DNA of 64,000 nucleotides from Yinghuangia soli (lineage in GTDB: Bacteria > Actinomycetota > Actinomycetes > Streptomycetales > Streptomycetaceae), in assembly GCF_021502675.1 (NCBI RefSeq), contig NZ_JAKFHA010000008.1, positions 176,994 to 240,993 on the forward strand, written 5' to 3'. Below the pieces are notes generated by a model. That model was not told the DNA's origin. It made no database searches and was given only the letters and a program-made list of their open reading frames with translations. Made by a program: the position numbers and the translations under genes. Below, in pieces: positions 9,741 through 34,554 of the stretch. Numbering within the stretch: position 1 is the stretch's first letter; the number at the start of each line of letters is the position of its first letter.

Positions 9741-10811
9741 CTACAACCCCACGATCGGCGCGATCAGTTTGTCGAGCCAGCTCCGGGCGACCAGTACTCG
9801 GGCGCGGTAGTAGCTCGTCTGGTGCACACGGCTGGACGCCGGTCCGAAATCGGTCACCTTGGCGACTTCGCCGGCGGTGACAGGGCCATGCTGCTCGATT
9901 CGGGCGATCAGGTTCCTCGTGACGGGCGTGATAACGGTCTGGCCCAGTTCATGGTGGAGAAACACCAGGTCGGACGGATCGATGCGCCGCTCCACCTCTG
10001 TCCGGCCGTCCAGTACCACCGCGATGAGCTTCCTGGCGACGGCGAGGCGGGGCAGGAAGTCCCCGAACTGGCCCGCCACCCCGCCGAGCGCACGCTCCAG
10101 CTTCACTTCGACGGGCAGCAGGCCCCACCAGCCCTCGGGGTTCGGGGCGAGCCGGCCGAAGTCGGTGAACTCGCGGACGACCCCGTCCGATCCTTCGAGA
10201 GAGAACCTCACCACGCGCTCGGGCCGGCCGAAGGCCTGCGACACGATACGCGGCTTGCCGTCGACACCGCGCAAGGCCTGCGGCCCGAGCGTGAGGCCGG
10301 CGTTCATCAGGAGGACGAGGTCCGCCCCCAAGGCGTCCACGAACGCGACCAGGCCCGGCTCGTACTTGACCAGCCGCTCGAAGTACACCGAGCCGGCGAC
10401 GTTGCTCAGCCAGCCGGTGAGGCCGGCCTCGAAATCGGCGAGGGAGGCAGCCCCGGTCTCCATGCGGGTGAGCCGGTCGGAGAGGAGCTTCGGAACCTCC
10501 TCATAGGTCCCGAGGCCGAAGTGGGCCGGTTCGAGGGGCGTTTCCCGCATCCGCTTGGGGACCTCCGCCCGGAGTATGGAGTCCACCTTGGCCAGGAGCG
10601 CGAGCCGGGCCGTCCGCTCCCGATCACTGGTGAGGAGGTCGAACAGCAACTTCCGGCGCTGCGGGGGTGTCGTCGGCTTCAGACCCAGGGCGCGTGCGGC
10701 GCCTTCCGGCGAGGCGCCGTGGTCGGAAAGGGCCTTGACGACGCGCGCGGACAGAGAGCCCTCCGCGTTCTTCCCGATCGCCGAGATGTCGGCCTTCGCC
10801 AGTCCGCTCAC
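9741..10811 (-). CDS. Uncharacterised protein, possible PD-(D/E)XK nuclease motif
   Basis: 356 aa; I do not recognise the family. No signal peptide or clear membrane helix. The N-terminal 130 residues look helical and charged. In the C-terminal half, DFGRL at about 217 is followed 18 residues later by PVEVKLE (E235, K237). A D-x17-E-x-K arrangement with a preceding hydrophobic strand fits the core of PD-(D/E)XK nucleases, but this is only a motif reading. The last 60 residues (ARIEQHGPVTAGEVAKV) resemble a small winged-helix-like segment. Start GTG overlaps the upstream stop (GTGA at 10808-10811), so it is co-translated with the 562-aa gene. It is the last gene of the unknown operon. Confidence 0.75.
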   Translation of the reverse strand: MSGLAKADISAIGKNAEGSLSARVVKALSDHGASPEGAARALGLKPTTPPQRRKLLFDLLTSDRERTARLALLAKVDSILRAEVPKRMRETPLEPAHFGLGTYEEVPKLLSDRLTRMETGAASLADFEAGLTGWLSNVAGSVYFERLVKYEPGLVAFVDALGADLVLLMNAGLTLGPQALRGVDGKPRIVSQAFGRPERVVRFSLEGSDGVVREFTDFGRLAPNPEGWWGLLPVEVKLERALGGVAGQFGDFLPRLAVARKLIAVVLDGRTEVERRIDPSDLVFLHHELGQTVITPVTRNLIARIEQHGPVTAGEVAKVTDFGPASSRVHQTSYYRARVLVARSWLDKLIAPIVGL

Positions 10812-12496: not shown

Positions 12497-15400
12497 GGGT
12501 TCTCGCCGTTCTTCTCGTCGGCGGCCGCTTGCGCGGCTTCGTCCTGCTCCGCCTTCGCGGCTTCGGCACGCTCCTTCCGGAGGTCGGGCAGTTTGTCGGT
12601 GCTGTCGTGCAGATACACCAGCGAGGTCGGCACCACGAAGGTCCACGCGGGTCCGTCCGGCGTCCCGCCGAGCCGGTCGTCGGTCTGCGCGCGCAGCTCC
12701 TCGTGCAGCGGTACGAACAGCGGGTCGCCGATCACCGGCGCCGGACCGCCGGACCAGGGCTCGCGGGTGGCGAGGTAGTGCAGCACCGCGTCCTCGTACG
12801 ACGGGCTCACGGCCACGAGTACCCGCGCCATGCCGGCGCGGAGAAACGCGGTGAACGCGGGGTCGGCGTCGTCGGAGCGGCCCATGAGCTCAAGCCAGCG
12901 CGGCATCTCCGCCCAGAAGTACGGATAGAACAAATAGGACAGATGCTCCCACTCGAAGGCTTGCTCCAGGAACTGCACCATGCGGCCTTGGGCCCGCGCG
13001 GCGTCGATGTCGATGGCCGGCCAGTCGACCTCGTCGCGCGCCTTCGTCTCGACGCGGGCGGTGGTGGGCGGGAGCGGCAGGCCGGTACCCGGCTCCTGGT
13101 TCTCCTGGAACTCGAAGCGGGTGTCGACCGGTGTGACCTTGCGGGTCTTCATCGCGGTGGTGCGGGGCAGCAGGTCGTCCGCGCCGTCGGAGTCGAACTC
13201 CTTGGTGATCAAGGTCAAGCAGTGCTTCTTGATCTCTTCGTCCATGACCGCTTTGTCGGCCGCGTCGGAGGTGCCTTGGAGGACGACGGAGACCGTGGCC
13301 GACTTCAGCGTGGCGAGCCGATCGCGGTAATCGGCGAGCCGACGTTCGTACTCGGCCTGCCGGGCCTGGTTGACGGCGCGCGTCTTCTTCTCCTCGGCCG
13401 CTTTGACGACGGCGTGGACGTCCTGCTGCCACTTCTGGCGGCGCTGCTCGGTGAGCTCCAGATAGAGCACCGCGCTGGCGTCGTAGTAGTCGATCTCTTC
13501 CCAGAAGCGAAGGCGAAGGGTGGTGTCGTCGTCCTGGAAGACCAGGTCCTCTCGCGGAGCGACCGACTCGTCCAAGTGCCAATAGCCCACGTCCGGCCGC
13601 GTCTCCTGCCACACCAGGCGGTCCGCGATCTCCAGCGCCATCTGGTTCTTGGGTGCCTTGCTCTTGAATTCCCCGTACCCGAAGAAGTCGACACGCACCG
13701 CCCGGTAGCCCCCGATGCCGGCGCCGCGGCACTCGAAGACCTTCGAGTGGTCCGCCCCCGAGATCTCCTTCTCCGCGAAGTAGCGCGATCCGGTGACCAG
13801 GTCGCGCAGGGCGACCGTCTTGCGGTCCTCGGGCACCGGAAGCGCCTCCAGGTCGTACTCGGCGCGCAGCCCGCGGTAGCTTGCCGCGGTGATGGTCTCC
13901 GGTGCGGGGATGTTCGGCACGTCGTAGACGGGCGGATCCGGCGGCTGCGGCACGCTCAGCGCCGTCGTGAACGCGCGCAGCTTGGCATCCGCCCAGGCGG
14001 CAGCGGGCTGCGGCACGAGGAACTCGAACATCAGCCGCTTGCCGTAGTTGAAGACCTGCGCCTTGTAGACCTTGTCCACCCACCGGTACATGCCCGAGAC
14101 GTGGCCGCCCGTGGAATTGGCGAAGACCTGCTTGTTGGACTCCTCGGTCTCGGTCAGCCGGGTCGTCGTGCGCTGGACGGCCGTCTGCGAGGCGACGCGG
14201 CTCACTGCCTTGTCGATGACGTCGCGCGCGAAGTTCCGCGAGGTCTTCGCGGTGTCCTCGGATGCCCTGTTGTAGGCGAACCCGGCGGTAAGTGAGGCGA
14301 CGACGGGCGTGCCCTGGTACGTCACGGTGGCGTTGGCGGTGACCCCGAGCGTGGTCTTGACCACGGCCTCGGCCTCGTCCTTGACCTCGAAGCGCTGCGT
14401 GGACTGGACGTCGCGGGTGGTGTCCCGGCTCCCTGACTCGCTCGCGGAGAAGGTGTCCTCGGCGCGTTCGGTCCGCCGGTGCCGGCGGGTTTTGGACTCG
14501 CCGCTCAGCACGTTGTGGATATGCGAGATCTCGCCCGGCCGGTACGCCACCAGCCACTGCCGCACGACCTTCAGGTCGCCGACCCCGATCGGCTTGATGG
14601 CGTTGAAGGGCCGCAGATAGCGCAGGAGCCGCGCGAAGACCGGGTGGATGACCGGGGTGGCGGTCAGATGGCGGCCCAGCGCCGACGTGTCGCCGATCAG
14701 CGGGAAGCCGGGCACGGCCGACCTCAGGTCCCAGCCGCGCAGGCCCGGATGGTCTTCCTCGAGCGCGGCCAGCAGGATCTGCTCGTTCCTGGTCGCCGTC
14801 CCGCGGGCCTGGATCCGCGCCACCGACAGGTCGACGGCAAGGGCTTCGAGCACATGCAGCGCGCGGAGCCCGTCGATGATGCGTTCCAAGCTCACCGTGG
14901 CCAGGCGGCGCAGCACGTACAACAGGTAGAGGGTATCGAAGAGCCGATGCTTCGCGGCGGCGAAGTCGTCGGTGTGCGCACCGGACGGTGCGAAGACGAT
15001 GTCCGTGAGCGGCGCGCCCAGAAGCTTCTCCAGCCGCTCGACGAGCCTCGGCAGGTCGGGGTCGGCGCCCTCGGCTGCCAAGACGTCCAGTACGCGGCCG
15101 AGCCCGGCCAGCAAAGGCAGCGGGGGCAGCAGATCCAGCCGGTCCGGCAGGACGTGGATCCTCCCGTTGCGGACCACGGTCGCGTAGCGGTCCAGTTCCT
15201 CCCACTGAAGCGGCTGCGAGGACGACCCGCGCGTGGTCAAGCCGCTCCCGCGGCAGGGGTCCGCGCACGGAGGCACCAGGTCGAGGACCTCGTCGAGAAG
15301 CAGCGCGAGCCGCTCTGCCTCGGTCTGCTCGGCGGCCTCGGGAGCGCAGGCGACCCTGCTGAAGACCAGGTGGCCGATCGCCGATCCGCCGGCCTCCGTG

Positions 15401-15555
15401 TGCAGGTCGCGCGGTTCGCGGCGGACGGCGGTGTCGAAGCTCCGGTAGGTGTCGTCGTGGATGTAGTGCATCCGAAGCGTCCCGCTGTCCACGGAATCGG
15501 GAGGACGCACGACCATGAAGTCGAACACCGGCTCCTGGCCGGTGCCGCCGCTCAT
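12493..15555 (-). CDS. Large uncharacterised protein with beta-rich core and coiled coil
   Basis: 1020 aa, no signal peptide and no obvious membrane helix. Regions seen: N-terminal domain 1-335; an Arg/Glu/Thr-rich stretch 338-400 starting RPGEISHIHNVLSGE; an alternating, beta-rich segment about 400-430; an amphipathic helix 436-456; then YRWVDKVYKAQVFNYGKRLM at 490-509. Next come a beta-rich domain 590-700, a coiled coil about 703-752 and an aromatic patch EWEHLSYLFYPYFW at 868-881. A charged Ala/Glu/Lys tail ends the protein. ATG at 15555 has GGAG 7 bases upstream. It is co-translated with the 562- and 356-aa genes. My impression is that the aromatic and GEISHIHNVL-type signatures recur in large uncharacterised bacterial proteins; this is recollection, not a search. 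Function unknown. Confidence 0.8.
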   Translation of the reverse strand: MSGGTGQEPVFDFMVVRPPDSVDSGTLRMHYIHDDTYRSFDTAVRREPRDLHTEAGGSAIGHLVFSRVACAPEAAEQTEAERLALLLDEVLDLVPPCADPCRGSGLTTRGSSSQPLQWEELDRYATVVRNGRIHVLPDRLDLLPPLPLLAGLGRVLDVLAAEGADPDLPRLVERLEKLLGAPLTDIVFAPSGAHTDDFAAAKHRLFDTLYLLYVLRRLATVSLERIIDGLRALHVLEALAVDLSVARIQARGTATRNEQILLAALEEDHPGLRGWDLRSAVPGFPLIGDTSALGRHLTATPVIHPVFARLLRYLRPFNAIKPIGVGDLKVVRQWLVAYRPGEISHIHNVLSGESKTRRHRRTERAEDTFSASESGSRDTTRDVQSTQRFEVKDEAEAVVKTTLGVTANATVTYQGTPVVASLTAGFAYNRASEDTAKTSRNFARDVIDKAVSRVASQTAVQRTTTRLTETEESNKQVFANSTGGHVSGMYRWVDKVYKAQVFNYGKRLMFEFLVPQPAAAWADAKLRAFTTALSVPQPPDPPVYDVPNIPAPETITAASYRGLRAEYDLEALPVPEDRKTVALRDLVTGSRYFAEKEISGADHSKVFECRGAGIGGYRAVRVDFFGYGEFKSKAPKNQMALEIADRLVWQETRPDVGYWHLDESVAPREDLVFQDDDTTLRLRFWEEIDYYDASAVLYLELTEQRRQKWQQDVHAVVKAAEEKKTRAVNQARQAEYERRLADYRDRLATLKSATVSVVLQGTSDAADKAVMDEEIKKHCLTLITKEFDSDGADDLLPRTTAMKTRKVTPVDTRFEFQENQEPGTGLPLPPTTARVETKARDEVDWPAIDIDAARAQGRMVQFLEQAFEWEHLSYLFYPYFWAEMPRWLELMGRSDDADPAFTAFLRAGMARVLVAVSPSYEDAVLHYLATREPWSGGPAPVIGDPLFVPLHEELRAQTDDRLGGTPDGPAWTFVVPTSLVYLHDSTDKLPDLRKERAEAAKAEQDEAAQAAADEKNGENP

Positions 15556-15773: not shown

Positions 15774-18700
15774 TCAGCCTGTTGCCGGGAAGAAGTCGTC
15801 GTCCAGGGTGGCGGCGTCGATCTTGTCGTGGGTGGTGGCCGGGCCTACTCGGGTGAGGATGCGTTCCAGGCTGGCGGTGAGCCTGGTGCGGGCGATGGTG
15901 TCCAGGGAGAGTTTGCCGAGGGCGCCTTCGAGGCGGTCGAGTTCTTCGAGGACGGCGACGGCGGTGGCGGCGCCGTCCGGGGCCAGTTCGGACCTCAGGT
16001 GGGCGGCCAGGACGGCGATGGTCGGGTGGTCGAAGACCACGGTGACCGGGAGCCGCAGGCCGGTGGCGGCCGAGAGGCGGTTGCGGAGTTCGACCGACGA
16101 GAGGGAGTCGAAGCCCAGGTCGACCAGGCTGCGCGTGATGTCGACGGCGTCCGGGGAGGCGTGTCCCAGGACGGAGGCGACGTCGGTGCGGACGAGGTCG
16201 AGGAGCAGGCGTTCGGCTTCCTCGGGGGACGCCTCGGCCAGCGACTTGGCGAGGTCCGCGCTGCCCGATGCGCGCCGGGCGGTGGGGATGCGGACCAGGC
16301 CGCGGAGGAGGAGCGGGACGGCGTCCGGGCCGATGGACTCGGCCTGGTCGGCGAGGGTCGCGAGGTCGAGGCGCACTGGGACCTGCACGGCGTCGGGGGC
16401 CGCGAGTGCGGCGTCGAAGAGGGCCAGGCCCTCGTCGGGGGACAGTACGGCCATGCCGCTGCGGGCCGCGCGCCGGGCGAGGTTGCCGCCGGTGCGGTCG
16501 GCCATCCCGCCGGACTGCTCCCAGGGTCCCCACGCGAGTGAGACCGCGGGCCGCCCGAGGGCGCGGCGGTGCTGGGCGAGTGCGTCGGTGAAGCCGTTGG
16601 CCGCGGCGTAGTTGGCCTGGCCGGGGGAGCCGAGCAGGCCCGCGGCCGAGGAGAAGATCACGAAGGCGGCGAGGTTGTGGTGGCCTTCGGTCAGGTCGTG
16701 CAGGTGCCAGGCGGCGTCGACCTTCGGGTCGAGGACCGCGTCGAGGCGTTCCGGGGTGAGCGAGTCGACCAGGCCGTCGTCGAGCGTGCCGGCCAGGTGG
16801 ACGACCGCGGTCAGCGGATGGGCGGACGGGACGGCCGCGAGCAGCCGCTCGGCGTCGCCGCGCCGGGTGGTGTCGGCGGCGATGACTTGCACCGAGGCGC
16901 CTGCGGCGGTCAGTTCTGCGGTGAGGTCCGCGATGCCTTCCGCGTCCGGACCGCGGCGGGACGCCAGGATCAGGCTCCGGACGCCGTGGGTGGCGACCAG
17001 GTGCCGGGCCAGGAGCATGCCCAGTGCGCCGGTGCCGCCGGTAAGCAGGACCGTGCCGTCCCCGAGTGGCGACGGGGCTGCGGTGTGCGACCGCTCGATG
17101 CGGGCCAGGCGGGGGACGAGAGCTTCGCCCGCCCGGAGGGCCAGTTGCGCCTCGCCGGTGGTGAGGGCGTGCGCGAGGGCGGCCGCCGATGCGTCCGTGC
17201 CGTCGGTGTCGACCAGCGTGAAGCGGCCGGGATGCTCGGACTGCGCGGAGCGGACGAGCCCCCAGACGGCGGCACCGGCCAGGTCGGCGACGGTTTCGCC
17301 GGGGGAGGTGCCGACCGCGTGCGTGGTGAGCAGGACGAGATGGCTCGCGGCGAAGCGCGGGTCGGCGAGCCAGGTGGAGAGCAACTCAAGCGTGCGCTGT
17401 GCCAGTTCGTGGGTGTGCGCGGCCGTGTCGCCGTCCTTGGCACGGACCGGGTCGGTGGCCAGGGGGACGATGACGGTGTCGGGGAGCGGTTCGGCGAGCG
17501 CGGCCAAGGCTGCTGCGGCGCTGCCGGGAGTGCTGCCGATGTCGGTGAGCTGCGGCGTCTCGGCGACCACCGCGAGCCGCTTGGCGGAGTCCCGGGCGGC
17601 CGGAGTCCACTGCACGCGGAACAGGCTCTCGTACGAGGTGCCGCCCGACGTGCGCAGCCGCTCGGCGGCGACCGGCAGGAACGCCAGCTCGCGGACAGAG
17701 GCGACCGGCTTGCCCTTCGGGTCGGTCACGGTGACCGCCATGCGCTCGCCGTCCAGCCGGGTCAGCCGCACGCGCAGCGACGCCGCGCCCGGGGCGTGCA
17801 CGCGCACGCCCGTCCAGGCGAAGGGCAGCGCCACGCGGTCGTCGTCGGCGTCGCGGCCTGCCGCGCCGGCGTGCAGCGCGGCGTCCAGGAGCGCCGGATG
17901 GACCAGGAAGTCGGCCGCCTGCGCCTGGAGTTCCTCGGGCAGATGGACCTCCGCGAAGACCTCGTCGCCGCGCTCCCAGGCCGCGGTGAGACCGCGGAAC
18001 GCCGGTCCGTAGCGGTAGCCGCGTTCGGCGAGCCCGGGATAGAAGCCGTCCAGGGAAAGCGGGACCGCGCCGGGCGGCGGCCAGACCGCGAGGCGCCCCG
18101 GCATGTCGTCGGAGTCGTCGGGGCCCAGCGTGCCGGTGGCGTGGCAGGTCCACGCCTCGTCCGCGCCCGGGTCCTCGGACCTGCCGTACACCGCGAGCAT
18201 GCGGACGCCGTCGGTGTCCGGGGGCCGCACCACGACGCGCAGCTGCACCGACCCCTCGGCGGGCAGCACCAGGGGTGTCTGCACGACGAGTTCGCGGACC
18301 AGGTCGCAGGCCACCCGGTCGGCGGTGAACGCCGCGAGTTCGAGCAGCGCCGTGCCGGGCACCACCACGGCGCCGAGCACCGCATGGTCGACCAGCCACG
18401 GGTGGGTCGCCGGGGAGACCCGGCCGGTGAGCACCAGGCCTTCGCTGGTCGGGAGTTCGACCACCGCACCGAGCAGCGGGTGGTCTGCGGCGCGCTGCCC
18501 GATGCCGGTGACGTCGCCCGCCCCGGCCGGTTGCTTCGGCAGCCAGTACGCCTTGCGGCTGAACGCGTGCGGCGGAAGCTCCGCAGGCCGGGCCCCGGCG
18601 AACACCGAACCCCAGTCCACGGACCCGCCGCGCGTGTGCACCCGCGCCAACGCCGTGGTCAGCGCCACCGGTTCGGAGCGGTCCGAACGCAGCGTCGGCG

Positions 18701-21644
18701 TGACGAGCGCGCCGCCGCCGTCCAGGCAGTCCTCGATCATCGCCGTGGCGGTACGCCCCGGACCCACCTCGACGTACGCCGCCACGCCCAGCTCGCGCAG
18801 CCGGCCGATGCCGTCCGCGAAGCGCACGGCCTGCCGCACATGGCGCACCCAGTAGCTGGGCAGCGCCAGTTCGCTCGCCGAGGCCAAGCGCCCGGTCACG
18901 TTGGACACGATCGGCACCGCGGGGGCCGCGTACGACAGCCGCTCGGCGACCCGCTCGAACGCGCCGAGCATCGGCTCCATCAGCTCGGAGTGGAACGCCC
19001 GGTTCACCCGCAGCCGCTTGACCAGCCGGCCCTTGGCGCGCCACTCGGCCGCGGCCGCCGCGACGGCCTCCTCGGGGCCGGACAGCACGACCGAAGCCGG
19101 CCCGTTGACCGCCGCGATGCTGTAATCGCGCCCCACCCCGCCGCCCGCGCGCACCTCGTCCTCGGACGCCAGCACGACGTACATGGCCCCGCCGGGCGGC
19201 AGTTCCTGCATCAACTTCGCCCGAGCGGTGACCAGTTCGGCGGCATCGGGAAGCGTCAGGACTCCTGAGACATGCGCCGCGGTCAGCTCGCCGATCGAGT
19301 GCCCGATCAGGTAGTCCGGACGCACGCCGCGTGCCCGCAGCAACCGGTACAGCGCCACCTGGAGAGCGAACAGGCCGGTCTGCGTGTACAGCGTCTCGTC
19401 GAGCAGCGCCGCCTCGGGCGACCCCGGCTCGGCGTGCACGATCTCGCACAGCGGCCGTTCGAGGTGCACGTCCAGCGCCGCGCAGACCTCGTCCCACGCC
19501 TCGGCGAAGACCGGGGAAGCCAGACAGAGTTCGCGGCCCATCCGGAGCCGCTGGGAGCCCTGCCCGGAGAACGCGAAGGCCAGCGGGCCGTCGCCGGCCG
19601 GGCCTTCGACCACCCCGGCGGCCTTGGGGGCCGTCTCGGACTCGGCCAGCACGCGCAGGTCGCGCAGCAGCTCCTCGCGGTTTCCGCCCACCACCGCGGC
19701 GCGGTACTCCAGCGCCGACCGAGTGGTGGCGAGCGCCGCCCCGATCTCGACCACGCCCAGTTCCGGGCGGGCCGTCGCGTGCGCATGCAACTGCCTTGCC
19801 TGCAGCAGGAGATCGTCGCGGGTCCGGCCGGACAGCAGCCACGGCACCGGGAACGCGCCGGACCGCAGCTCCGCCGGCTCCGCGTCCGCGACCCCGCCCT
19901 GAGCCGCCGCCGATGCCCGGTCGCGATCGCCTTCCTCGACGATCACGTGCGCGTTCGTGCCGCTCAGCCCGAACGACGACACCGCCGCCCGGCGCGGCCG
20001 CCCGGTCTCCGGCCAGTCGCGCGCCTCGGTGAGCAGCTCCACCGCCCCGGCCGACCAGTCGATCACCGGCGACGGCGCGTCCACGTGCAGGGTCCGCGGC
20101 AGCATCCCGTGCCGCATCGCCAGCACCGTCTTGATCACGCCGGCCAGCCCGGCCGCGGCCTGCGTGTGCCCGATGTTGGACTTCACCGACCCCAGCCACA
20201 AAGGCTGTTCGCGGTCCCGGCCGTACGCGGCGAGCAGCGCCTGCGCCTCGATCGGGTCGCCCAGCCGGGTGCCCGTGCCGTGCGCCTCCACCGCATCGAT
20301 ATCGGCCGGCGCGAGGTCGGCATCCGCGAGCGCCTGGCCGATCAGCCGCTGCTGGCTCGGGCCGTTCGGGGCGGTGAGCCCGTTGGACGCACCATCGTGG
20401 TTGATCGCGCTGCCGCGCACCACCGCGAGCACCGGATGCCCGGCCCGCCGGGCCTCGGACAGCCGCTCGCACACCAGCACCCCGACGCCCTCGGACCACG
20501 CCGTGCCGTCCGCGGCGGCCGCGAACGACTTGCAGCGCGCATCCGGCGCCAGGCCCTGCTGGCGGCTGAACTCGGTGAACACCACCGGCGTGGCCATCAC
20601 CGTCACGCCGCCCACCAGCGCCAAGTTGCACTCGCCTTGCTGCAGCGAGCGGCACGCCAGGTGCAGCGCGACGAGCGAGGACGAGCACGCCGTGTCGACC
20701 GAGAAGACCGGCCCTTCCAGGCCCAGCGAGTACGCGACCCGCCCCGAGATCACGCTCGACGCGTTCCCGGTGAGCAGGTGCCCCCACAGATCCTCGGGCA
20801 CGTCCTCGGCGCGCAGCGAGTAGTCGCTCTGCACGACCCCGGTGAACACGCCGGTACGGCTCCCGCGCAGCGCCGCCGGGTCGATCCCGCCACGCTCCAA
20901 GGCCTCCCACGACGCTTCCAGCAGCAGGCGCTGCTGGGGGTCCATCGTGATGGCCTCACGCGGCGACAGCTTGAAGAACTCCGCATCGAACTCGGCAGCG
21001 TCGTAGAGGAATCCGCCCTCGCGTACGGCCGACTTCGCGGTCTGCCCCGGGGCCGCCGCGAAGAGATAGTCCTCGTCCCAGCCGCGGTCGGTCGGGAACG
21101 GGCCGATGGCATCGCGGCCCTCGGTCAGCAGCGCCCAGAAGTCGTCGGGCGTGCGCACGCCGCCCGGGAACCGGCACGCCATCGCGACGATGGCGACCGG
21201 GTCGTCGGCCGGCTCACCGGTCCGGCCGGCCTCCTGAGCCGGACCGGCCGCCGGGTCCGCGGCCGCCGCGGAGGGCTGCGCGGAGTCGGCCGGAGGTGCC
21301 GACTCGGCCTCCAGGGCGGCGAGTTCGCCGCGCAGGTATTCCGCGAGCGCGACCGGAGTCGGGTAGTCGAAGACGAGCGTCGCGGCAAGCCGCAGCCCCA
21401 GCGCGCTGCCCAGTGCCTCGGCGAACTCCAGCGCGGCGAGCGAGTCGAATCCCGCTTCCTCCAGGCTGCGTTCCGCCGGTATCGCATCGGCGTCCGGGCG
21501 GTCCAGCACCTCGGCCGCCTTCTCGCGCACGATGCGCACCAGAGCGCGTGCCCGTTCGGCGTCGGAAGCCGCGGCAAGGCTGCGGCGGAATGCGGAAACA
21601 GAAGAAGAAGAGCCCATGGCAGTCCCCACGGAAGATGCCGGCAT
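15774..21644 (-). CDS. Single-module type I polyketide synthase, ACP-KS-AT-DH-KR-ACP
   Basis: About 1956 aa. Domains in order: N-terminal ACP (GFDSL, phosphopantetheine Ser near 68); KS about 150-570 with Cys in DTACSSS near 320 and His in HGTGT and NIGH; AT with GHSIGE near 785 and an AFHS motif, suggesting malonyl-CoA. Then DH with [10 protein letters not shown] near 1095 and DAALH; KR with TGGTGALG near 1535, an LDD motif (B-type) and Ser/Tyr in FSSAAG and NYAAAN; C-terminal ACP with GFDSL near 1850; and a short helical docking-like tail. No ER, thioesterase or reductase. One extension would give an alpha,beta-unsaturated acyl-ACP. The N-terminal ACP is well placed to take a starter from the divergent FAAL (21904). 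The frame opens at GTG 21656; ATG 21644 has GGAGG about 11 bases upstream. Release mechanism and product unknown. Confidence 0.93.
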
Positions 21645-21903
21645 CGACGTCACCACCTCCGGGGGAAGCTATCCGGAATCCCCCGATCGGCACCCATCTG
21701 CCGGTAACCGATCGCCCCCCGGACGCCGAGACCGGGCGGTGACCGAAAGATGGACGATGCCGCCGATATGGGCGGTAGCTTCGCCGACGAACACCGCGTT
21801 CGGGCCCGTTTGGGGAGGCGTGCCGCGTGAGCGAGCGAAGCGAGCGAGCCAATATAAGGATGCGTCCTGCGAAAGCGGCCGCCGAGCGAAGCGAGGCGGT
21901 TGC
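21645..21903. promoter_or_regulatory. Divergent promoter region with GAGCGAAGCGAG repeats
   Basis: 259 bases between the PKS and FAAL starts. The core GAGCGAAGCGAG occurs at 21833-21844, inside a near-symmetric GAGCGAGCGAAGCGAGCGAG (21829-21848), and again near 21884-21895. An A/T-rich AATATAAGGAT lies between them (21851-21861), the most promoter-like stretch in the gap. GAGCGAAGCGAG motifs of this type are common intergenic repeats in high-GC genomes, so they need not be operators. Confidence 0.45.
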
Positions 21904-23562
21904 ATGAGCAGGTTCATCGACACCATCGTCGCCATGTCGGCGAAATCGCCGAATGGCTTGACGACCGGGGAGCCGCACGAACCCGTCCGGCGCACGTGGG
22001 CGGAAATCCACCGCAAAGCCCGGGCCGGCGCCGCGGAACTCGTCGCCGGCGGCCTGCAGCCGGGGGACTCTGTGGCGATCCTCGCCGCCGACGTCGCCCA
22101 GGTGGCGCACACCGTGCAGTCCGTGTGGCTGGCCGGCGGCAGCACCACGATGCTGCACGAACCGGGCCACCGCGCGAACCCCGCCGCCTGGCAGGCCGCC
22201 ACGCTCCAGGCGCTGCGTACCGTGCACGCCGACCTCGTGCTGCTGGGCCGCCCGTACGAGTCCTTCGCCGAGGTCCTGCGCGCCCACGGCTTCGCGGCGC
22301 GCGCCATCGACGAGACCGAACGCCCGGGCGCCGGAGAGGCGTTCGTGCCCGTCGAGGTCGGCGAGGACGCGCCCGCGCTGCTGCAGCTCACGAGCGGCTC
22401 CACCGCAGAACCGAAAGCGGTGCGCGTGACGCACGGCAACGTCATGGCGAACCTCGAGGACTTCTCCGCGGCCCGCGGATTCGGCCGCCCCGACGACGTG
22501 ATGGTGTCGTGGGTGCCGATGTTCCACGACATGGGCCTGGTCGGCTGCTTCCTCGGTTCGCTCACCACCGGCATGGAATATGTCGCCATCACACCGGCGG
22601 AATTCCTCGGCTATCCCGGGCTGTGGCAAGAACTCATGCACAAATACCGGGGCACGATGACCGCGGCGCCGAACTTCTCGTACGTGCTCATGGCCCGCCA
22701 ACTCGCCGCCACCGAACCCGGCTCGCTCGACCTGTCGTGCGTCCGGATCATGGGCAACGGCGGCGAGCCCATCGACCCGGACGCGATGCACCGGCTCATG
22801 GCCGCGGGCGCCCCGTTCGGCCTGGCCCCCGAGACGCTCGCCTGCGTGTACGGCGCCGCCGAGAACGGCGTCTTGATCACCATTACGCCAGAGGGCGAGC
22901 GCATGGTCGTCGACGTCGTCGACGCGGCCGCGCTGGAGAAGAACCGCCGCGCGGTGCCGGCCGCCGCGGACGCCGCACCCGGTGAGGTGCGCCGCTTCCC
23001 GCTGCTTGGCTACGTACTGCCCTCCGTCAGCGCCCGCATCGTCGGCGACAAGGGCGAAGTGCTCGGCGAACGCGAGGTCGGCACCATACAGCTGCGCGGC
23101 GCCTCCGTGGCCGCCGCGTACTCCACCGAGGCCGGCATCGTGCCCGCGACCGACGCCGACGGCTGGCTCGACATGGGCGACGAGGGCTACTTCGTCGGCG
23201 ACCGGCTGGTCGTGTGCGGGCGCCGCAAGGACATCATCATCGTCGGCGGCCGCAACATCTTCCCGACCGACATCGAACGCGCTGCGACCGGCGCGGACGG
23301 CGTCCGGGCCGGCAACGTCATCGCGGTGCGGGTGGCCGCCGACGGCGTGGGCGGCATCGAGAAGGAGTCCTTCGCGGTCCTGGTCGAGTCCCGGCAGCAC
23401 GACGACCCGGCCGCCGCCGAGCGGATCCGCGACGCGGTCGCGGCCCGCGTCCTGTCCGACGTCGGGGTGCGCCCGGCCCGGGTGCTCGTCCTGCCGCCCG
23501 CCACGCTGCCCAAGACCTCCTCGGGCAAGCTCCGCCGCGCCGCGGCCCGCGACCTGCTCTGA
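21904..23562 (+). CDS. Fatty acyl-AMP ligase (FAAL)
   Basis: Adenylate-forming enzyme, 552 aa, that activates a fatty acid as acyl-AMP and passes it to an ACP. P-loop LTSGSTAEPKAVRVTHGN near residue 165; FAAL-type segments WVPMFHDMGLVGCFLGSL and AAPNFSY; C-terminal subdomain GRRKDIIIVGGRNIFPTDIE and the catalytic Lys region KTSSGKLRR. The ACP partner is probably the N-terminal ACP of the divergent PKS. Start ATG 21904 has GAGG about 9 bases upstream; the frame stays open for more than 300 bases upstream, but that part does not look FAAL-like. First gene of a five-gene run to the MmpL exporter. Confidence 0.93.
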   Translation: MSRFIDTIVAMSAKSPNGLTTGEPHEPVRRTWAEIHRKARAGAAELVAGGLQPGDSVAILAADVAQVAHTVQSVWLAGGSTTMLHEPGHRANPAAWQAATLQALRTVHADLVLLGRPYESFAEVLRAHGFAARAIDETERPGAGEAFVPVEVGEDAPALLQLTSGSTAEPKAVRVTHGNVMANLEDFSAARGFGRPDDVMVSWVPMFHDMGLVGCFLGSLTTGMEYVAITPAEFLGYPGLWQELMHKYRGTMTAAPNFSYVLMARQLAATEPGSLDLSCVRIMGNGGEPIDPDAMHRLMAAGAPFGLAPETLACVYGAAENGVLITITPEGERMVVDVVDAAALEKNRRAVPAAADAAPGEVRRFPLLGYVLPSVSARIVGDKGEVLGEREVGTIQLRGASVAAAYSTEAGIVPATDADGWLDMGDEGYFVGDRLVVCGRRKDIIIVGGRNIFPTDIERAATGADGVRAGNVIAVRVAADGVGGIEKESFAVLVESRQHDDPAAAERIRDAVAARVLSDVGVRPARVLVLPPATLPKTSSGKLRRAAARDLL

Positions 23563-23590
23563 CGGCGACCCACGCTCTGGAGGGCGACCC

Positions 23591-24730
23591 ATGCGATCCA
23601 TGGACCACGCGCGCGCGACCTGCGAGGGCTACCTGCCCGGACTCCTCGACGACGTCGCCCGCGTCCCGCTCGCCGACCGGGAGGCCCCGGGCAGCCCGGT
23701 CATCGAGCTCTTCCGCAAGCACCGCGGGCCCGCCCTGGTGATCCCCACCGAGTACGGCGGACTCGGCGCGGGCCCGCTGGAGGCCATGCGGGCGCTGCGC
23801 GCGATCGGCGCCGTGTCGCCGTCCCTCGCGGTCGCCTCGACCATGCACCACTTCTCCGTCGCCACCTTGTTCACGCTCGCCGAGAGCCTGCAGAACTCCG
23901 GCCTGGAATGGGCCCTCCTGGAGGCCGTCGCCCAGGAGAACCTCCTGGTCGCGTCCGGCTTCGCGGAAGGCCGCACCGAGCAGGGGATCCTGTCGCCCTC
24001 GATGAGCGCGGTGCCCGTGGAGGGCGGCTACCGCGTCAACGGGTCCAAGAAGCCGTGCAGCCTGGCGCACTCGATGGACCTGCTCACCGCGGCCATCACG
24101 GTGCCCGGCGCGGAGGGCAAGCCCGAGCTGGCCGTCCTCCTCATCCCGTCGACCATGGACGGCATCACCCGGCACCCCTTCTGGGGCAGCCGCATCCTGG
24201 CCGGCGCGGAGAGCGACGAGGTCAGGCTCAGCGACGTGTTCGTGGAAGAGCAGCTCGTCATGCGTACCGAGGCGCGCGAAGGCGACGGCCTGGACGAGCT
24301 GCAGACGGTCGGCTTCCTGTGGTTCGAGCTGCTCATCTCGGCCGGCTACCTGGGCGCCGCGAGCACGCTCGTCGAACGGGTCCTGACCGAGAAGCGCGGC
24401 TCCGCCTCGGAGCGCTCCGCCGTCGCCTGCCGGCTGGAGACCGCCACGCTCCTGCTGGAGTCGATCGCCCGGCGCATCGCCGACGGCGGCTCCGACAACA
24501 GCGCACTCGGCGACGTCCTCGTCGCCCGCTACGCGGCCCAGGACGCCCTCAACGACGCCGGCGCCAAGGCCGTCGAACTCCTCGGCGGCATGGCCTTCAT
24601 CGGCGGCGACGAGGTCGCCTACTACGCCGCGGCGTACCACGGCCTCGGCTTCCACCCGCCGTCCCGGTCCCGGACCGCGCCGTCCCTCTTGGACTACCTG
24701 GACGGCTCCGGACCGGTGCTGGTCGGTTGA
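23591..24730 (+). CDS. Acyl-CoA (acyl-ACP) dehydrogenase-like flavoprotein
   Basis: 379 aa, acyl-CoA dehydrogenase fold. Seen: N-terminal helical domain with VIPTEYGGLGAGPLEA; the middle beta domain with GYRVNGSKKPCSLAHSMD; a C-terminal helical domain with AVELLGGMAFIGGDEVAYY. Expected to introduce an alpha,beta double bond using FAD, possibly on an ACP-bound acyl chain made by the neighbouring FAAL. The catalytic Glu is not obvious to me. ATG 23591 follows GGAGG at 7 bases; 28 bases after the FAAL stop, so the same operon. The acyl carrier (CoA or ACP) is inferred from context only. Confidence 0.85.
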   Translation: MRSMDHARATCEGYLPGLLDDVARVPLADREAPGSPVIELFRKHRGPALVIPTEYGGLGAGPLEAMRALRAIGAVSPSLAVASTMHHFSVATLFTLAESLQNSGLEWALLEAVAQENLLVASGFAEGRTEQGILSPSMSAVPVEGGYRVNGSKKPCSLAHSMDLLTAAITVPGAEGKPELAVLLIPSTMDGITRHPFWGSRILAGAESDEVRLSDVFVEEQLVMRTEAREGDGLDELQTVGFLWFELLISAGYLGAASTLVERVLTEKRGSASERSAVACRLETATLLLESIARRIADGGSDNSALGDVLVARYAAQDALNDAGAKAVELLGGMAFIGGDEVAYYAAAYHGLGFHPPSRSRTAPSLLDYLDGSGPVLVG

Positions 24731-24785
24731 CCGGGCCCGGCGACCGCCACCCGCCCCTCCTCGACAGACAGACAGGAGCTCAGCC

Positions 24786-25772
24786 ATGACCGACCGCACC
24801 GGACCCGGCGCCGAGCCGCGCACGTACGCCGCGGAGGCGGACTGGGACACCGCGCGTGCCCTGTTCGACGGCGGCGACGAACTCGTCCTCTCGGCCGAGC
24901 AGTGCGGGATCCGCTACTGGTTCGACAACGTCCCCCAGGGCACGCTGCGCGGCCACGCCGAAGGCCACCTCCCCGAGGTGACCACCCCCGAGCTCGTCCG
25001 CGAGCCCGGACCGCTGCACGAGGCGCTCATCCAGGAAGTGGCGTTCCGCACGCTCGCCGAGGAGCGCGCCGCCGCCTCGCTCGCGTACCTCGTGCTGGAC
25101 GCCCCCGACCTGGTCTGCCACGAGTTCTACGCCACGCAGCTCATCGACGAGACCCGGCACGCGATGGTCTTCCGCGAGCACCTCGTCGACCTCGGCGTGC
25201 CGCGCGACCAGGTCCAGGCCCGCATCGACGAACTGGTCGGCGACGACCGGCAGCGCATCCTCACCCCGCTGGAGGACTACGTCCTCCCGGTGATCCGCGA
25301 CAACCACGACTTCATCGGCGCGGTCGTCCTGCTCACCACCCTCGTCGAGGGCGTGCTGGCCCCGGCGTTCGAGCAGAGCGAGCGCAAGTGGCGGCCGCTC
25401 GACCCGGTGATGGCCGACATCCAGAAGGGCGCCGGCATCGACGAGGTACGCCACCTCGCGGTCGGCAGCTCGCTGGTGCGCCGCCACCTCGAGAAGAACC
25501 CCGGGGACACCGAGCGCCTCGTGCAGATCGTCCGCGACGGCATGCACCTGTTCTACGAACTCCCGGTCATCGACCAGCTCTCCCGCTGGGAGGCGCTCTT
25601 CCAGGAGGGCATCGCGCAGCACGCCGAGCTGCTCGCCGACTACGAGGTCTGGCCCGGCCGCCGGCTCCTGGACACCACGCCCGAGGAGCGCATCGGCAAC
25701 ACCTTCGAGATGACCGCGCGGATCCACGAGCACCGGCTCAAGGACATGGGCCTCTCCGCAGCGCTGGCCTGA
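24786..25772 (+). CDS. Ferritin-like diiron oxygenase or desaturase
   Basis: 328 aa. A complete ferritin-like diiron ligand set is visible: E92/E93 (LAEER), E122-T-R-H125, E188 (LVEGV), E220-V-R-H223. Two E-x-R-H motifs separated by about 95 residues match the E/ExxH/E/ExxH pattern of R2-like and related oxygenases, so the protein should bind two irons and activate O2. Possible chemistry includes N-oxygenation, hydroxylation or desaturation of a carrier-bound intermediate; I cannot choose. Within a biosynthetic operon a tailoring role is most likely. Start ATG has AGGAG 8 bases upstream. Confidence 0.85.
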   Translation: MTDRTGPGAEPRTYAAEADWDTARALFDGGDELVLSAEQCGIRYWFDNVPQGTLRGHAEGHLPEVTTPELVREPGPLHEALIQEVAFRTLAEERAAASLAYLVLDAPDLVCHEFYATQLIDETRHAMVFREHLVDLGVPRDQVQARIDELVGDDRQRILTPLEDYVLPVIRDNHDFIGAVVLLTTLVEGVLAPAFEQSERKWRPLDPVMADIQKGAGIDEVRHLAVGSSLVRRHLEKNPGDTERLVQIVRDGMHLFYELPVIDQLSRWEALFQEGIAQHAELLADYEVWPGRRLLDTTPEERIGNTFEMTARIHEHRLKDMGLSAALA

Positions 25773-25831
25773 CCCGCCCGACCCGCCCGATCCGCCCGAC
25801 CCGCCTGAGCACCCGCCTGAGCACCCGCCTC
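25771..25831 (+). repeat. Short GC-rich tandem repeats between operon genes
   Basis: About 60 bases of imperfect repeats of CCGCCCGA followed by two copies of CACCCGCCTGAG, filling the gap between the diiron enzyme stop and the next gene. Probably slippage-derived; no further function seen. Confidence 0.6.
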
Positions 25832-25850
25832 CCGAGGAGGGATGAGCACC

Positions 25851-27584
25851 GTGACACTCCCCAACGGCTCCGCCCCGCAGCCCGGCGAGGAGCGGCGGCC
25901 CAAACCGCGCTTCCTCACCGAGTTCACCCCCACCCGCTACACCAAGCGCCTCCACCCGTTCTCGCGCAAGCCCGCCGTGGCACGGCTCGGCGAGCTGTGG
26001 CACGTCACCGCGCAGCGCAACCCGACCCAGGTGATGATCACCGACCGGCCGCCGGACACCGACCCGGACGGCGGCGCCACCCGCACCAACGTGCAGTGGG
26101 CCGAACTGGTCGACCGCACCGCGGCCTGGCTGCACGCGGCCGGCGTCCGCCCCTGGGACCGGGTGGCCGTCATGAAGGCCAACCACTTCGACATCTTCGT
26201 CACGGCCAGCGCGGTGGCCCGGATCGGCGCCATCCCGTGCCTGCTGTCCGGCACGTACGACGCCGAGACCGCGCAGATCCTGCTGCAGCGCCTGGAAAAG
26301 CCGTTCCTGCTGACCGACCGCGAGCACATCGAGCGGTGCGGCATCAGCGAGGAGGTCGTGGCGTCGTACACGGTCCGCACGATCAGCGTGGACGGGGCCG
26401 AGAACCGCCCCGACATCATCGACCTCGCCTCGCTCCGCGACGCAGGCGTGCCGCCGGCCGTGCCGCGCATGCGCGAGATGCACGAGCCGATGATCATCAC
26501 GCACACCTCGGGCACCACCGGCTACCCCAAACTGGTCATGCACTCGGCGGAGTCGGTGTACTCGATGGGCGTCGTGGAGAGCAACCGCTGGCCGCGGTGG
26601 CTCACCAAGAAGGACACCATGGTGTTCTGCGACCCGTACACGCATGAGCGCCTGACCACGTTCACGCTGGCGGTCGCCACCACCACGCCGCGCATGGTGT
26701 GGCTGAGCGGACCGGACATCGAGATCGCCCGCCGCATGATCGCCGAGTACAAGCCGACGCTGATCGAGACGCTCCCGAACATCTTCCTGTCCTGGGAGCC
26801 GCTGGCCCGCGACCCCGCCCGGCTGTTCAAGCAAGTCCGGTTGTTCCTCAACTCGTTCGACGCGATCCACACCCGCACGATCCGGCTCTTCATGAGCGCC
26901 ACGGACGTCAAGCTGCCCTTCTGGGTGCAGTCGTGGAGCCAGAGCGAGAACGGCGTGCTGTGCATGCGCCCGTACCTGCGCTTCATGGTGCGCAAGCGCG
27001 GCCACATGCCGCCGCCCACCCAGCTCATCGGCTGGGCGCTCTACCCGCACGCCAAGCTGCGCGCGGTGGACCCGGAGACCGGCGTCAAGCTCAAGGCCGG
27101 ACAGGTCGGCATGATCATGATCAGCCAGCCCGGCCGCTGCCTGGCGTACGTGCAGGAGCAGGACCGGCACGACCTCAAGGTCGTGGGCGAGTGGTGGAAC
27201 ACCGGCGACCTGGGCGTCATGAACAAGCTCGGCGCCTGCCGGCTCGTGGACCGCGAGGTCGACCGCATCGACAACGAGAACAACGACGCGGTCAGCGCCA
27301 TCGCCATGGAGGACATCATCCTCGACCGGCTCCCGCAGACCTCCGAGGTCGTCATCCTGCCGCAGGCCGGCGAATTGCCGGTTCCGGTGGTCAGCACCTA
27401 CGACGACGTGCCGATCGACGAGCAGGAGTGGGCCGACGCCATCGCCGACCTGCCCAAACTGGCTTCCCTGGTGCAGATTTCGTGGGATGCGTTCCCGCGC
27501 ACCGGCACCTGGAAGATCAAGCGCGGAGTACTCCGCGAACAACTGTTGGGCGCCAAGGGTATCGGCATAGGGCGCTGGACCTGA
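25851..27584 (+). CDS. AMP-dependent synthetase/ligase (second adenylate-forming enzyme)
   Basis: 577 aa, ANL superfamily. P-loop THTSGTTGYPKLVMH near residue 210; GEWWNTGDLG motif with the expected Asp; C-terminal subdomain DREVDRIDNENN and late GTWKIKRG with the catalytic Lys. It lacks the FAAL-specific signature of the first ligase, so it may be a CoA ligase or may activate a different carboxylic acid. ATG at 25842 is only one base from AGGAGG; GTG at 25851 is about 10 bases away and is chosen. It could supply a second building block or take part in product release. The substrate is unknown. Confidence 0.87.
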   Translation: MTLPNGSAPQPGEERRPKPRFLTEFTPTRYTKRLHPFSRKPAVARLGELWHVTAQRNPTQVMITDRPPDTDPDGGATRTNVQWAELVDRTAAWLHAAGVRPWDRVAVMKANHFDIFVTASAVARIGAIPCLLSGTYDAETAQILLQRLEKPFLLTDREHIERCGISEEVVASYTVRTISVDGAENRPDIIDLASLRDAGVPPAVPRMREMHEPMIITHTSGTTGYPKLVMHSAESVYSMGVVESNRWPRWLTKKDTMVFCDPYTHERLTTFTLAVATTTPRMVWLSGPDIEIARRMIAEYKPTLIETLPNIFLSWEPLARDPARLFKQVRLFLNSFDAIHTRTIRLFMSATDVKLPFWVQSWSQSENGVLCMRPYLRFMVRKRGHMPPPTQLIGWALYPHAKLRAVDPETGVKLKAGQVGMIMISQPGRCLAYVQEQDRHDLKVVGEWWNTGDLGVMNKLGACRLVDREVDRIDNENNDAVSAIAMEDIILDRLPQTSEVVILPQAGELPVPVVSTYDDVPIDEQEWADAIADLPKLASLVQISWDAFPRTGTWKIKRGVLREQLLGAKGIGIGRWT

Positions 27585-27588
27585 CACG

Positions 27589-29775
27589 ATGCTCCACATG
27601 CTGGGACGCCTCGCGTACCGACGCCGCCGGTGGATCGTCGCCGGAGCCGTGCTCTTCGTCGCCCTTGCGGGCCTATGGGGTTCCTCCGTCTTCGACCATC
27701 TGACGGGGACGGGGTTCACCTACAAGGAGAGCGAGAGTTCGCGGGCTGCGGAACTGCGGCGCGACGTCGGCGGGCAGGCCGACGCCGATGTCGTGGTGGT
27801 CTTCCGCAGCGACCGGATGACGGTCGACGACCCGGCCTACGAGCAGTCCGCCCAACGGGTGTTGACCGGTCTGCCCGCCGCGCGCGTCCAGACGGTGACG
27901 TCGTATTGGACCGCGCGGCGGGACGACCTGGTCAGCAAGGACCGGCGCACCACCTTCGCGGCGCTCGAGATGACCGGCGCCGACGAAGCCGAACGCACCC
28001 ACAACTACACGGAGATCGAGGACCTGCTCGCCTCGCCGGACCTCACGGTCACGGTCGGGGGACCGGCGGCGCTCTTCGACGAGGTCGACAAGCAGAGCAA
28101 GAAGGACCTGGCGAAGGCCGAAGGCCTGGCACTGCCACTCCTGTTCCTGCTGCTGATCGTGCTCTTCCGGAACGTGCGGGCGGCGTTGCTGCCGGTCGTC
28201 ATCGGGATTCTGGCGATCGTGGGGTCACTCGCCGCGCTGCGTTTCCTGACGTACTTCACGGACGTGTCGGTGTTCGCGGTCAACATCGTCACCCTGCTCG
28301 GGCTCGGACTGGCCATCGACTACAGCTTGTTCGTGGTCAGCCGGTTCCGCGAGGAGATGGACGCGGGGCACGACGTGCCCGAGGCGCTGCACCGGACGAT
28401 GCGTACCGCAGGCCGGACCATCGCGGTCTCGGCGGTCACCGTCGCGGTGGCGCTGTCCAGCCTGTTCGTCTTCCCGCAGGTCTTCCTGCGCTCGCTCGGG
28501 CTGGGCGGCATCGCAGCGGTGCTGCTCGCGGTGCTCTTCTCGCTGACCGTGATGCCGGCGCTGCTCGCGATGCTCGGGCCGAAGGCGGCCGCCTGGCGGC
28601 CCCGGCGCGGCGTGCGCGAGCGCCCCGCGGGCAAGCCCGGCAACTGGGAGCGCATCGCCCGCGCGGTGATGCGCCGACCGATCCAGGTTGCGGTCGGGGT
28701 CACCGCACTGCTGCTGTTCCTCGGACTGCCGTACCTGAACGTCTCGTACGGCTGGATCGACTCGCGGATCATGCCGGAGAGCTCGCACAGCCGGCAGGCG
28801 CAGGAGACGCTCGACCGCGAGTTCGCCAAGAACGTCACCAACCCGGTCGAGATCGCCGTGGTGCTGGCGGCGCCCGCGGACTCCGCGGAAGGCCGGGCGG
28901 CGCTGGCGGACTATGTCGGGCGCGTGGGCGCCGTGCCCGGCATCGTCGGCGCCGAGGTCACCGGCATCGGCGGGAACACCGCCAAGGTCGACGCGCGGTT
29001 CACCATCGAGCCGATCTCCGAGGCGGCCCGGGACCTCATCGAGGACATCCGCGCGATACCCCCGCCGCCCGGGGGAGAGGTCCATGTCGGCGGCAACACG
29101 GCCGTGTTCGCGGACCTGCTGGACATGCTGGGCGAACGGCTGCCGTGGATGCTCGCGATCATGGTGCTGGCGACCTTCGTGCTGCTCTTCTTCGCCTTCG
29201 GGTCGGTGGTGCTGCCGGTCAAGGCGATCCTGATGAACGTGCTGAACCTGCTGGCGGCGTTCGGTGTCGTGGTCTGGCTGTTCCAGTACGGGAACCTCAG
29301 CGGGCCGCTGGCGTTCACCTCGACCGGCAACATCGACGTCGTGCAGCTGGTGCTGATCCTGGCGATCGCCTTCGCGCTGTCGATGGACTACGAGGTGTTC
29401 CTGCTGTCGCGGGTGCGCGAGCAGTACGACCTGACGGGCGACAACCGCGAGGCGGTGGCGGTCGGACTGCAGCGGAGCGGGCGCATCATCACGGCGGCCG
29501 CGCTGCTGCTGGTCGTGGTGATCGGCGCCTTCGCGACCTCGCAGGTGCTCATCGTGAAGATCGTCGGGATCGGCCTGGCGACGGCGATCATCGTGGACGC
29601 CACCATCATCCGTGTCCTGCTGGTGCCGGCGACGATGCGGCTGCTCGGCTCGTACAACTGGTGGGCACCGCGCTTCGCCCGGCCGCTGTATGCGCGCTGG
29701 GGCGTGCGGGAGACGGCCGACGACGAGGAGCCGGAGGTGCGGCGGGAGTCGCTGCAGGGGACTACGCCGCCGTGA
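27589..29775 (+). CDS. MmpL-family RND exporter
   Basis: 728 aa membrane protein of the MMPL family, with two repeats of six helices and two extracytoplasmic loops. The proton-relay Asp-Tyr pairs are visible in LGLAIDYSLFVVSRF near residue 240 and ALSMDYEVFLLSRV near 598. Known family members export lipids and lipopeptides in actinobacteria. It starts 4 bases after the ligase stop with no strong ribosome-binding site, suggesting coupling. Last gene of the biosynthetic run; most likely the exporter of the PKS-derived product. A second ATG at 27598 is an alternative start. Confidence 0.92.
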   Translation: MLHMLGRLAYRRRRWIVAGAVLFVALAGLWGSSVFDHLTGTGFTYKESESSRAAELRRDVGGQADADVVVVFRSDRMTVDDPAYEQSAQRVLTGLPAARVQTVTSYWTARRDDLVSKDRRTTFAALEMTGADEAERTHNYTEIEDLLASPDLTVTVGGPAALFDEVDKQSKKDLAKAEGLALPLLFLLLIVLFRNVRAALLPVVIGILAIVGSLAALRFLTYFTDVSVFAVNIVTLLGLGLAIDYSLFVVSRFREEMDAGHDVPEALHRTMRTAGRTIAVSAVTVAVALSSLFVFPQVFLRSLGLGGIAAVLLAVLFSLTVMPALLAMLGPKAAAWRPRRGVRERPAGKPGNWERIARAVMRRPIQVAVGVTALLLFLGLPYLNVSYGWIDSRIMPESSHSRQAQETLDREFAKNVTNPVEIAVVLAAPADSAEGRAALADYVGRVGAVPGIVGAEVTGIGGNTAKVDARFTIEPISEAARDLIEDIRAIPPPPGGEVHVGGNTAVFADLLDMLGERLPWMLAIMVLATFVLLFFAFGSVVLPVKAILMNVLNLLAAFGVVVWLFQYGNLSGPLAFTSTGNIDVVQLVLILAIAFALSMDYEVFLLSRVREQYDLTGDNREAVAVGLQRSGRIITAAALLLVVVIGAFATSQVLIVKIVGIGLATAIIVDATIIRVLLVPATMRLLGSYNWWAPRFARPLYARWGVRETADDEEPEVRRESLQGTTPP

Positions 29776-30293: not shown

Positions 30294-30454
30294 GACCGGG
30301 GAAACGACCGAACCGGCACGCAGTCACCCCTTCGCGCACATGTGCGAGCATGCGGCGAGCGCGGCTCGCCCGCGTCCGGCGGCCGATCCGCATATCGGGG
30401 CGGTCCGTTGGGCAACCGTCGAGCGTCAGGCCGACCCGCCCAGGAGGAGGTCCC

Positions 30455-34319: not shown

Positions 34320-34554
34320 GGGTCCTCCGTTGTCCTGGACACATCATCCGGAACGCCGGGCCGATGCGTCCCGCGGGATCTGCCGCATCGACGCCGGAGG
34401 CGGAAAAACGACTAGTCAGTTGATGCGTCCATCCGTATGATGCCGACGCCGCGCAGCGATCGTGCCGCGGCCGTGGGGGATCCGTCTGCGCCTGCGCCCG
34501 CCAGGGCCGACGGCGGCTGCCCTGTGTCTGTGCTGTGCAACGAGGAAGTACCAC

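Follow-up and report, generated by a model that had tools for sequence, protein, structure and literature searches.

Gene content and organisation of the locus

The stretch of DNA analysed here (the window) covers 64 kb of the 9.7 Mb genome of the actinomycete Yinghuangia soli (G000:C78:176994–240993), and the genes at its positions 15774–29775 raise the question of what product would be assembled by a one-module polyketide synthase (PKS), a fatty acyl-AMP ligase (FAAL), two oxidoreductases, a second AMP-ligase (LIG2) and an MmpL exporter. The best explanation is that the ten genes of a cluster for a nitrogen-functionalised, exported lipid have been split into two parts, of which this region is the larger.

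All six genes are real, each being an open reading frame (ORF) with strong coding GC3 (G+C at third codon positions). The PKS gene (15774–21656, minus strand; Pfam and NF045894, 1822.6 bits) encodes the domain order ACP-KS-AT-DH-KR-ACP and is transcribed divergently from five plus-strand genes: a FAAL with a predicted role in starter loading (about 21904–23562; NF005850, 677.4 bits against a cut-off of 572), a flavoenzyme of acyl-CoA dehydrogenase (ACAD) fold (about 23591–24730), a ferritin-like diiron enzyme (24786–25772), LIG2 of the ANL superfamily (25842–27584; Pfam/NCBIfam, Foldseek and tree) and an MmpL/RND lipid exporter (27589–29775; PF03176, 274 bits). The starts of FAAL (ATG) and of the ACAD-fold gene were picked by start-codon choice. 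The intergenic gaps from FAAL to MmpL are 28, 55, 69 and 4 bases, so these five genes are probably one operon. The original prediction, made from the sequence letters, had described this arrangement, with the PKS bearing its own ACP, and it was confirmed by the ORFs and by Pfam/NCBIfam. Directly downstream of MmpL on the same strand lies the nitrosuccinate lyase gene creD (30350–31876, with the start probably a GTG near 30455; NF052556, 777.9 bits against a cut-off of 650).

All active-site motifs of the PKS were present (GFDSL in both ACPs, C-H-H in KS, GHSIGE in AT, HxxxGxxxxP in DH, and LDD plus Tyr in KR). The RAFH motif of the AT is malonyl-like, and the motifs suggest a malonyl(-CoA) extender and an enoyl product. 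The PKS has no thioesterase (TE) domain and ends in a C-terminal tail of docking-domain type; no Pap/TE-type release or acyl-transfer domain was found in the PKS, its annotated neighbours or the conserved gene set. The next-best models of the FAAL after NF005850 were also fatty acyl-AMP ligases, and MmpL gave a partial match to the MmpL3 model NF052608 (479 bits, under its cut-off). FAAL, PKS and MmpL together fit an exported lipid, and to this extent the proposal of an exported lipid holds; the diiron enzyme is a VlmB homologue, as described below.

Scanning of named genomes with LIG2 revealed the six-gene core in Yinghuangia seranimata, Micromonospora sp. C31, Micromonosporaceae KJ-029, M. 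craterilacus, Rhizocola hellebori and a Corynebacteriales metagenome-assembled genome (MAG). The core is thus common to seven genomes at 49–83% identity, of which KJ-029 and M. craterilacus form a nearly identical pair, and such co-occurrence, which had been anticipated, means that the grouping is not due to chance.

Four partner genes, for an enoyl-CoA hydratase, a class III aminotransferase, a short-chain dehydrogenase/reductase (SDR) and an SRPBCC protein, lie left of the window at C78:171169–175256; like creD, they were not part of the original description. The aminotransferase (C78:172352-173620) is found at 70–82% identity in all six other carriers, and the SDR (C78:173617-174720) is a stand-alone, thioester-reductase-like NAD_binding_4 protein. 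In the loci whose assemblies reach these genes (M. craterilacus L208, C31 L203, Rhizocola L204 and KJ-029 L205), the order is enoyl-CoA hydratase, aminotransferase–SDR–SRPBCC, PKS, FAAL–VlmH–VlmB–LIG2–MmpL, and the ten-gene block is contiguous or almost so in the Micromonospora, Rhizocola and KJ-029 genomes. The cluster is called split because the four genes that stand beside the PKS in relatives are about 17.5 kb to its left in Y. soli; the genes in between look unrelated (glycosyl hydrolases, a regulator and a peptide-type ABC transporter). The two parts are on separate contigs in Y. seranimata, where SRPBCC does not adjoin the PKS. Rather than a set reduced to one module, as had been supposed, the genes are part of a split ten-gene cluster that is followed by a nitrous-acid gene.

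The two oxidoreductases and their azoxy-type relatives

In valanimycin biosynthesis, VlmH N-hydroxylates isobutylamine and VlmB converts a hydrazine to the azoxy group (PMC11705231, PMC9379638). The ACAD-fold protein, with weak Pfam and NCBIfam scores only, is 51.2% identical over 377 aa to the protein in the VlmH position of L053, the locus of the VlmB of PDB 6d9f, and it groups among azoxy-locus sequences. The diiron protein has no Pfam match; it matched PDB 6d9f (‘putative VlmB homolog’) at E 4.7e-88, is 48.0% identical to the VlmB of L053 and conserves the metal ligands E92, E122/H125, E188 and E220/H223. The L053 locus lies on a chromosome that we take to be that of Kitasatospora setae; it also contains VlmA, VlmO, a flavin reductase and a PLP decarboxylase, and its VlmB reads as 6d9f by eye.

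Homologues of the two window proteins were paired in all 18 VlmB-family loci (L040–L057). The ACAD-fold gene therefore most likely encodes an amine N-hydroxylase of the VlmH type, going by its similarity and pairing, and not the ‘acyl dehydrogenase’ originally named. An ordinary acyl-ACP dehydrogenase was rejected in view of the constant VlmB pairing and the 51% identity.

In azoxy pathways, N–N bond formation is the work of VlmA, a tRNA-dependent aminoacyltransferase, and VlmO, a hydrazine synthase. The locus has homologues of VlmH and VlmB, and VlmA and VlmO were not found in it: tblastn with queries from two azoxy loci (threshold 1e-3) gave no match to either gene in the window or its left flank, nor in the other window-type loci, and the same queries detected both in 8 of 8 azoxy loci tested as controls. 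Among the 18 azoxy loci, VlmO was present in all (18/18), VlmA in 15 (within the stretch), SRPBCC plus aminotransferase in 14, and CreD/CreE in none. LIG2 was present in all seven window-type loci and in none of the 18 azoxy loci, apart from one 25% cross-hit. The absence of VlmA is established at locus level. For VlmO, a genome-wide search with the VlmO protein as query found none in the window genome, Y. seranimata and the three Micromonospora-type carriers, two copies in each of the two control genomes, and one copy each in Rhizocola and the MAG, distant from the window-type cluster. The DUF4260 model (PF14079) was dropped as a VlmO probe, having missed VlmO copies in the control genomes G168 and G196.

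The seven window-type proteins formed one clade (100/100) in the VlmB tree, sister to the azoxy-type proteins L040–L044. This sister position makes a swap of VlmA/VlmO for LIG2 plausible, and from these sequence relationships it looks like VlmA and VlmO were replaced in an azoxy-family cluster into which LIG2 came, along with SDR, PKS, FAAL and MmpL.

The second ligase and the nitrous-acid genes

LIG2 has the usual motifs of the ANL superfamily. Its AlphaFold model (pLDDT 84.7) had the diazotase CmaA6 (8ztz) as top Foldseek match, and in a tree that included 30 further ANL proteins from the genome the LIG2 family grouped with Tri17-like, CmaA6 and 9xb8 (SH-aLRT 96, midpoint root), a placement made weak by long branches. 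The VIA-align ranking was not used for its function because of ties across ANL enzymes. A close LIG2 relative stands beside CreE–CreD in a separate Streptomyces cluster (L135/L136), and homologues at 39–41% run divergently to CreE in G309 and G348. Two Amycolatopsis genomes (L134, L138) carry a compact VlmH–SDR–aminotransferase–SRPBCC–LIG2 cassette without VlmB, VlmA or VlmO. LIG2, which is present where VlmA and VlmO are missing, is a candidate for a nitrite-activating ligase that would form an N–N bond. Its possible kinship to the diazotases and the CreE/CreD neighbourhoods of its relatives make nitrite the leading second substrate; that LIG2 uses nitrite is judged possible, at close to an even chance.

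The wider family showed some further arrangements. The Streptomyces huiliensis (L135) and S. sp. I05A-00742 (L136) loci contain, with the LIG2 relative, a small possible ACP, an ACAD, a tRNA-synthetase-like protein, an NAD_binding_4 reductase, CreE and CreD. The L112 locus (G309:C1:2657000-2676500) has a LIG2 homologue divergent from CreE-CreD, alongside MmpL, an amine oxidase-like protein and a polyprenyl synthetase, and perhaps makes an N–N terpenoid. In L115 and L116 (G473, G490), MmpL is flanked by two LIG2 homologues in a single Streptomyces locus.

The CreD of the window, the second enzyme in the nitrous-acid pathway, is the sole gene above the NF052556 cut-off in its genome. Its SS-loop, SSAMPHKRNP, fits SSxMPxKRNP, a consensus that has been put forward for nitrating enzymes (PMC13411527). 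MmpL of Y. seranimata is followed directly by creE and then creD; this CreE scored 682 bits, and the other CreE-like match there was far weaker (297 bits). No creE remnant was found by tblastn between MmpL and CreD in the window. The only CreE of the window genome (C78:146783-148666; one strong match with the PF13454 probe) is about 45 kb away, in a triacsin-like cluster, which has CreE without CreD where the window has CreD without CreE; a single nitrous-acid pathway may serve both clusters. The triacsin-like cluster (C78, about 137–159 kb; L058, L157) also contains a Tri17 ortholog (1017 bits to 8tf7/9bq0), a UbiD decarboxylase and an 82-aa possible ACP.

Proposed pathway and alternative explanations

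In the proposed pathway, the FAAL would charge the N-terminal ACP with a fatty acid, and the PKS would add malonate and reduce and dehydrate the chain to an enoyl-ACP. Release as an aldehyde is assigned to the stand-alone NAD_binding_4 SDR because the PKS has no TE. The class III aminotransferase would convert the aldehyde to an alkenylamine, and the VlmH-like enzyme would N-hydroxylate it. LIG2 would use ATP to activate a second partner and couple it to the hydroxylamine nitrogen. The partner would most likely be nitrite, derived from CreE/CreD in Yinghuangia, giving an N-nitrosohydroxylamine or a related N–N group; we infer this nitrite–LIG2 step. The VlmB-like enzyme would then oxidise the N–N (or N–O) group, and MmpL would export the product, most likely an N-nitrosohydroxylamine or azoxy-type lipid.

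What the sequences show, and this reading builds on, is the gene content and its conservation across seven genomes, the VlmH/VlmB homology, the absence of VlmA/VlmO and the adjoining CreD. Conversion of a lipid amine to an N-oxidised product is highly probable and an N–N bond in the product is probable, while the pathway as a whole, with an N-functionalised exported lipid and coupling by LIG2, is somewhat favoured. That LIG2 is nitrite-dependent, builds the N–N bond on alkylhydroxylamines and replaces VlmA plus VlmO, which would make this a further route to aliphatic N–N lipids missed by VlmA–VlmH mining, is a tentative proposal, put slightly below its use of nitrite.

Several findings weigh against the proposed pathway. 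The known substrate of VlmB is a hydrazine, not an obvious product of a nitrite route, and the cluster has no flavin reductase (VlmR). For LIG2, the VIA Z-scores were tied across ANL enzymes including FadD13 and MenE, its relatives are only 22–25% identical to the Tri17-like diazotase, and its wider family (37–40%) is common in Streptomyces but mostly has no CreD close by. At the position of ScCreD His347, the CreDs of both Yinghuangia species carry Gln (WQSEW, as against WHAEW in all other KRNP-loop CreDs examined), and the His347 Ala variant of ScCreD was inactive in hydronitration (PMC13411527). Outside Yinghuangia, none of the five carrier genomes gave a CreD above the cut-off, so that another nitrite source or another partner must be allowed for them; in the MAG, a CreD 1 bit under the cut-off lies beside CreE on a contig other than that of the cluster. 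Supply of nitrite by nitrate/nitrite reductases has been reported for alanosine (PMC11705231), and by analogy such reductases could be the source in these carriers.

An azoxy route with a different coupler would agree with the missing CreD outside Yinghuangia, with the SRPBCC and aminotransferase common to 14 of 18 azoxy loci, and with the retention of a VlmB-type enzyme, a type known to convert a hydrazine to the azoxy group (PMC11705231). LIG2 would adenylate an amino acid and condense it with the alkylhydroxylamine, in the role of aminoacyl-tRNA plus VlmA; a further partner would rearrange the ester to a hydrazine, the VlmB-like enzyme would form the azoxy group, and CreD/CreE would be an addition confined to Yinghuangia. 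However, VlmO, the known N–N-forming rearrangement enzyme, was not found in the window genome and four of the six other carriers and has no obvious replacement, and the two Amycolatopsis genomes have LIG2 with VlmH and without VlmB. This route is considered unlikely. The product might also contain no N–N bond, if LIG2 acylated the hydroxylamine to an N-alkyl hydroxamate, or acted as another acyl/CoA ligase, with oxidation by the diiron enzyme of the amine or hydroxylamine to an oxime, nitroso or nitro group. CreD would then serve the triacsin-like cluster 45 kb off, as suits a genome with its sole CreE there and its sole CreD in the window, and the fold comparison that tied LIG2 with ordinary acyl ligases is in keeping with this. 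Against it, Y. seranimata has CreE-CreD adjoining its copy of the window-type cluster, with its other CreE-like match far weaker (297 vs 682 bits), and a LIG2 relative occurs with CreE-CreD in another cluster as well; a similarly low probability is given to this explanation.

The FAAL adjoining a PKS with its own N-terminal ACP, plus MmpL, had led to a comparison with mycobacterial FadD-Pks-MmpL loci, in which the product would be a structural or signalling lipid and the diiron enzyme a desaturase or hydroxylase of the acyl chain. The likeness holds for those three genes; it does not extend to the amine/hydroxylamine core, which is common to azoxy clusters. The ACAD and diiron proteins are homologues of VlmH and VlmB, paired in azoxy loci, and an aminotransferase and a reductase are conserved in the cluster, which makes a lipid of mycobacterial type very improbable. 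A Dob-type hydrazinoacetate/hydrazone route was rejected, the diiron enzyme being VlmB-like and not AurF-like, and such genes were not noticed in the locus.

Comparison with known systems

To our knowledge, few enzymes are known that form the N–N bonds of aliphatic natural products. The cluster seems to represent an undescribed version of the pathway to these rare N–N compounds, azoxy-like up to the hydroxylamine and set apart from azoxy clusters because the two defining genes, VlmA and VlmO, were not found. No description of this gene combination was found in the open-access literature (subscription papers and MIBiG not covered), and within that scope the original failure to match a named natural product still stands.

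With the azoxy clusters (valanimycin vlm, azodyrecin ady, KA57-A and elaiomycin) it shares VlmH- and VlmB-type proteins, an aminotransferase and SRPBCC (the last two in most azoxy loci examined), as well as the logic of acyl to aldehyde to amine to hydroxylamine (PMC9379638, PMC11705231). In contrast to them, it lacks VlmA, VlmO and VlmR, has an SDR instead of an aldehyde dehydrogenase-type reductase, and adds LIG2, PKS plus FAAL, MmpL and CreD (CreE too in Y. seranimata). The nitrite-dependent ANL ligases CreM, AvaA6, CmaA6 and Tri17 with CreE-CreD likewise place an ANL ligase beside a nitrosuccinate lyase, and the top Foldseek match of LIG2 belongs to them; their substrates are an arylamine or hydrazone, whereas that of LIG2 would be an alkylhydroxylamine, and CreDE are not near the window-type cluster in most relatives. 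Mycobacterial FadD-Pks-MmpL loci differ in that the window has a single module and amine/hydroxylamine enzymes, with no Pap acyltransferase or TE seen. The Dob/DOBA diazo cluster of Nocardia also combines one PKS with a ferritin-like diiron N-oxidase, but follows a hydrazinoacetate route with an AurF/CmlI-type diiron enzyme, in contrast to the VlmB type of the window (PMC12154687).

The retention of VlmH and VlmB without VlmA and VlmO points to LIG2 as an alternative coupling enzyme. Window-type clusters would be overlooked by the published mining for azoxy producers, which relied on VlmA–VlmH pairs (PMC9379638). If the proposed pathway is true, nitrous-acid genes would be linked to lipid chemistry with an MmpL exporter.

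Other features of the window

Left of the PKS, three neighbouring long minus-strand frames (356, 612 and 1020 aa) with high GC3 occupy 9741–15555. Neither strand gave a Pfam match here, and the loci of relatives have no counterpart of these genes, which were therefore excluded from the cluster. A single 581-aa frame on the minus strand (2549-4294) carries TetR-type and LacI-type regulator domain sets and is either a fusion or two genes joined. Further right, 34462-37368 encodes a protein of 968 aa that contains six LGFP repeats and matches arylsulfotransferase weakly.

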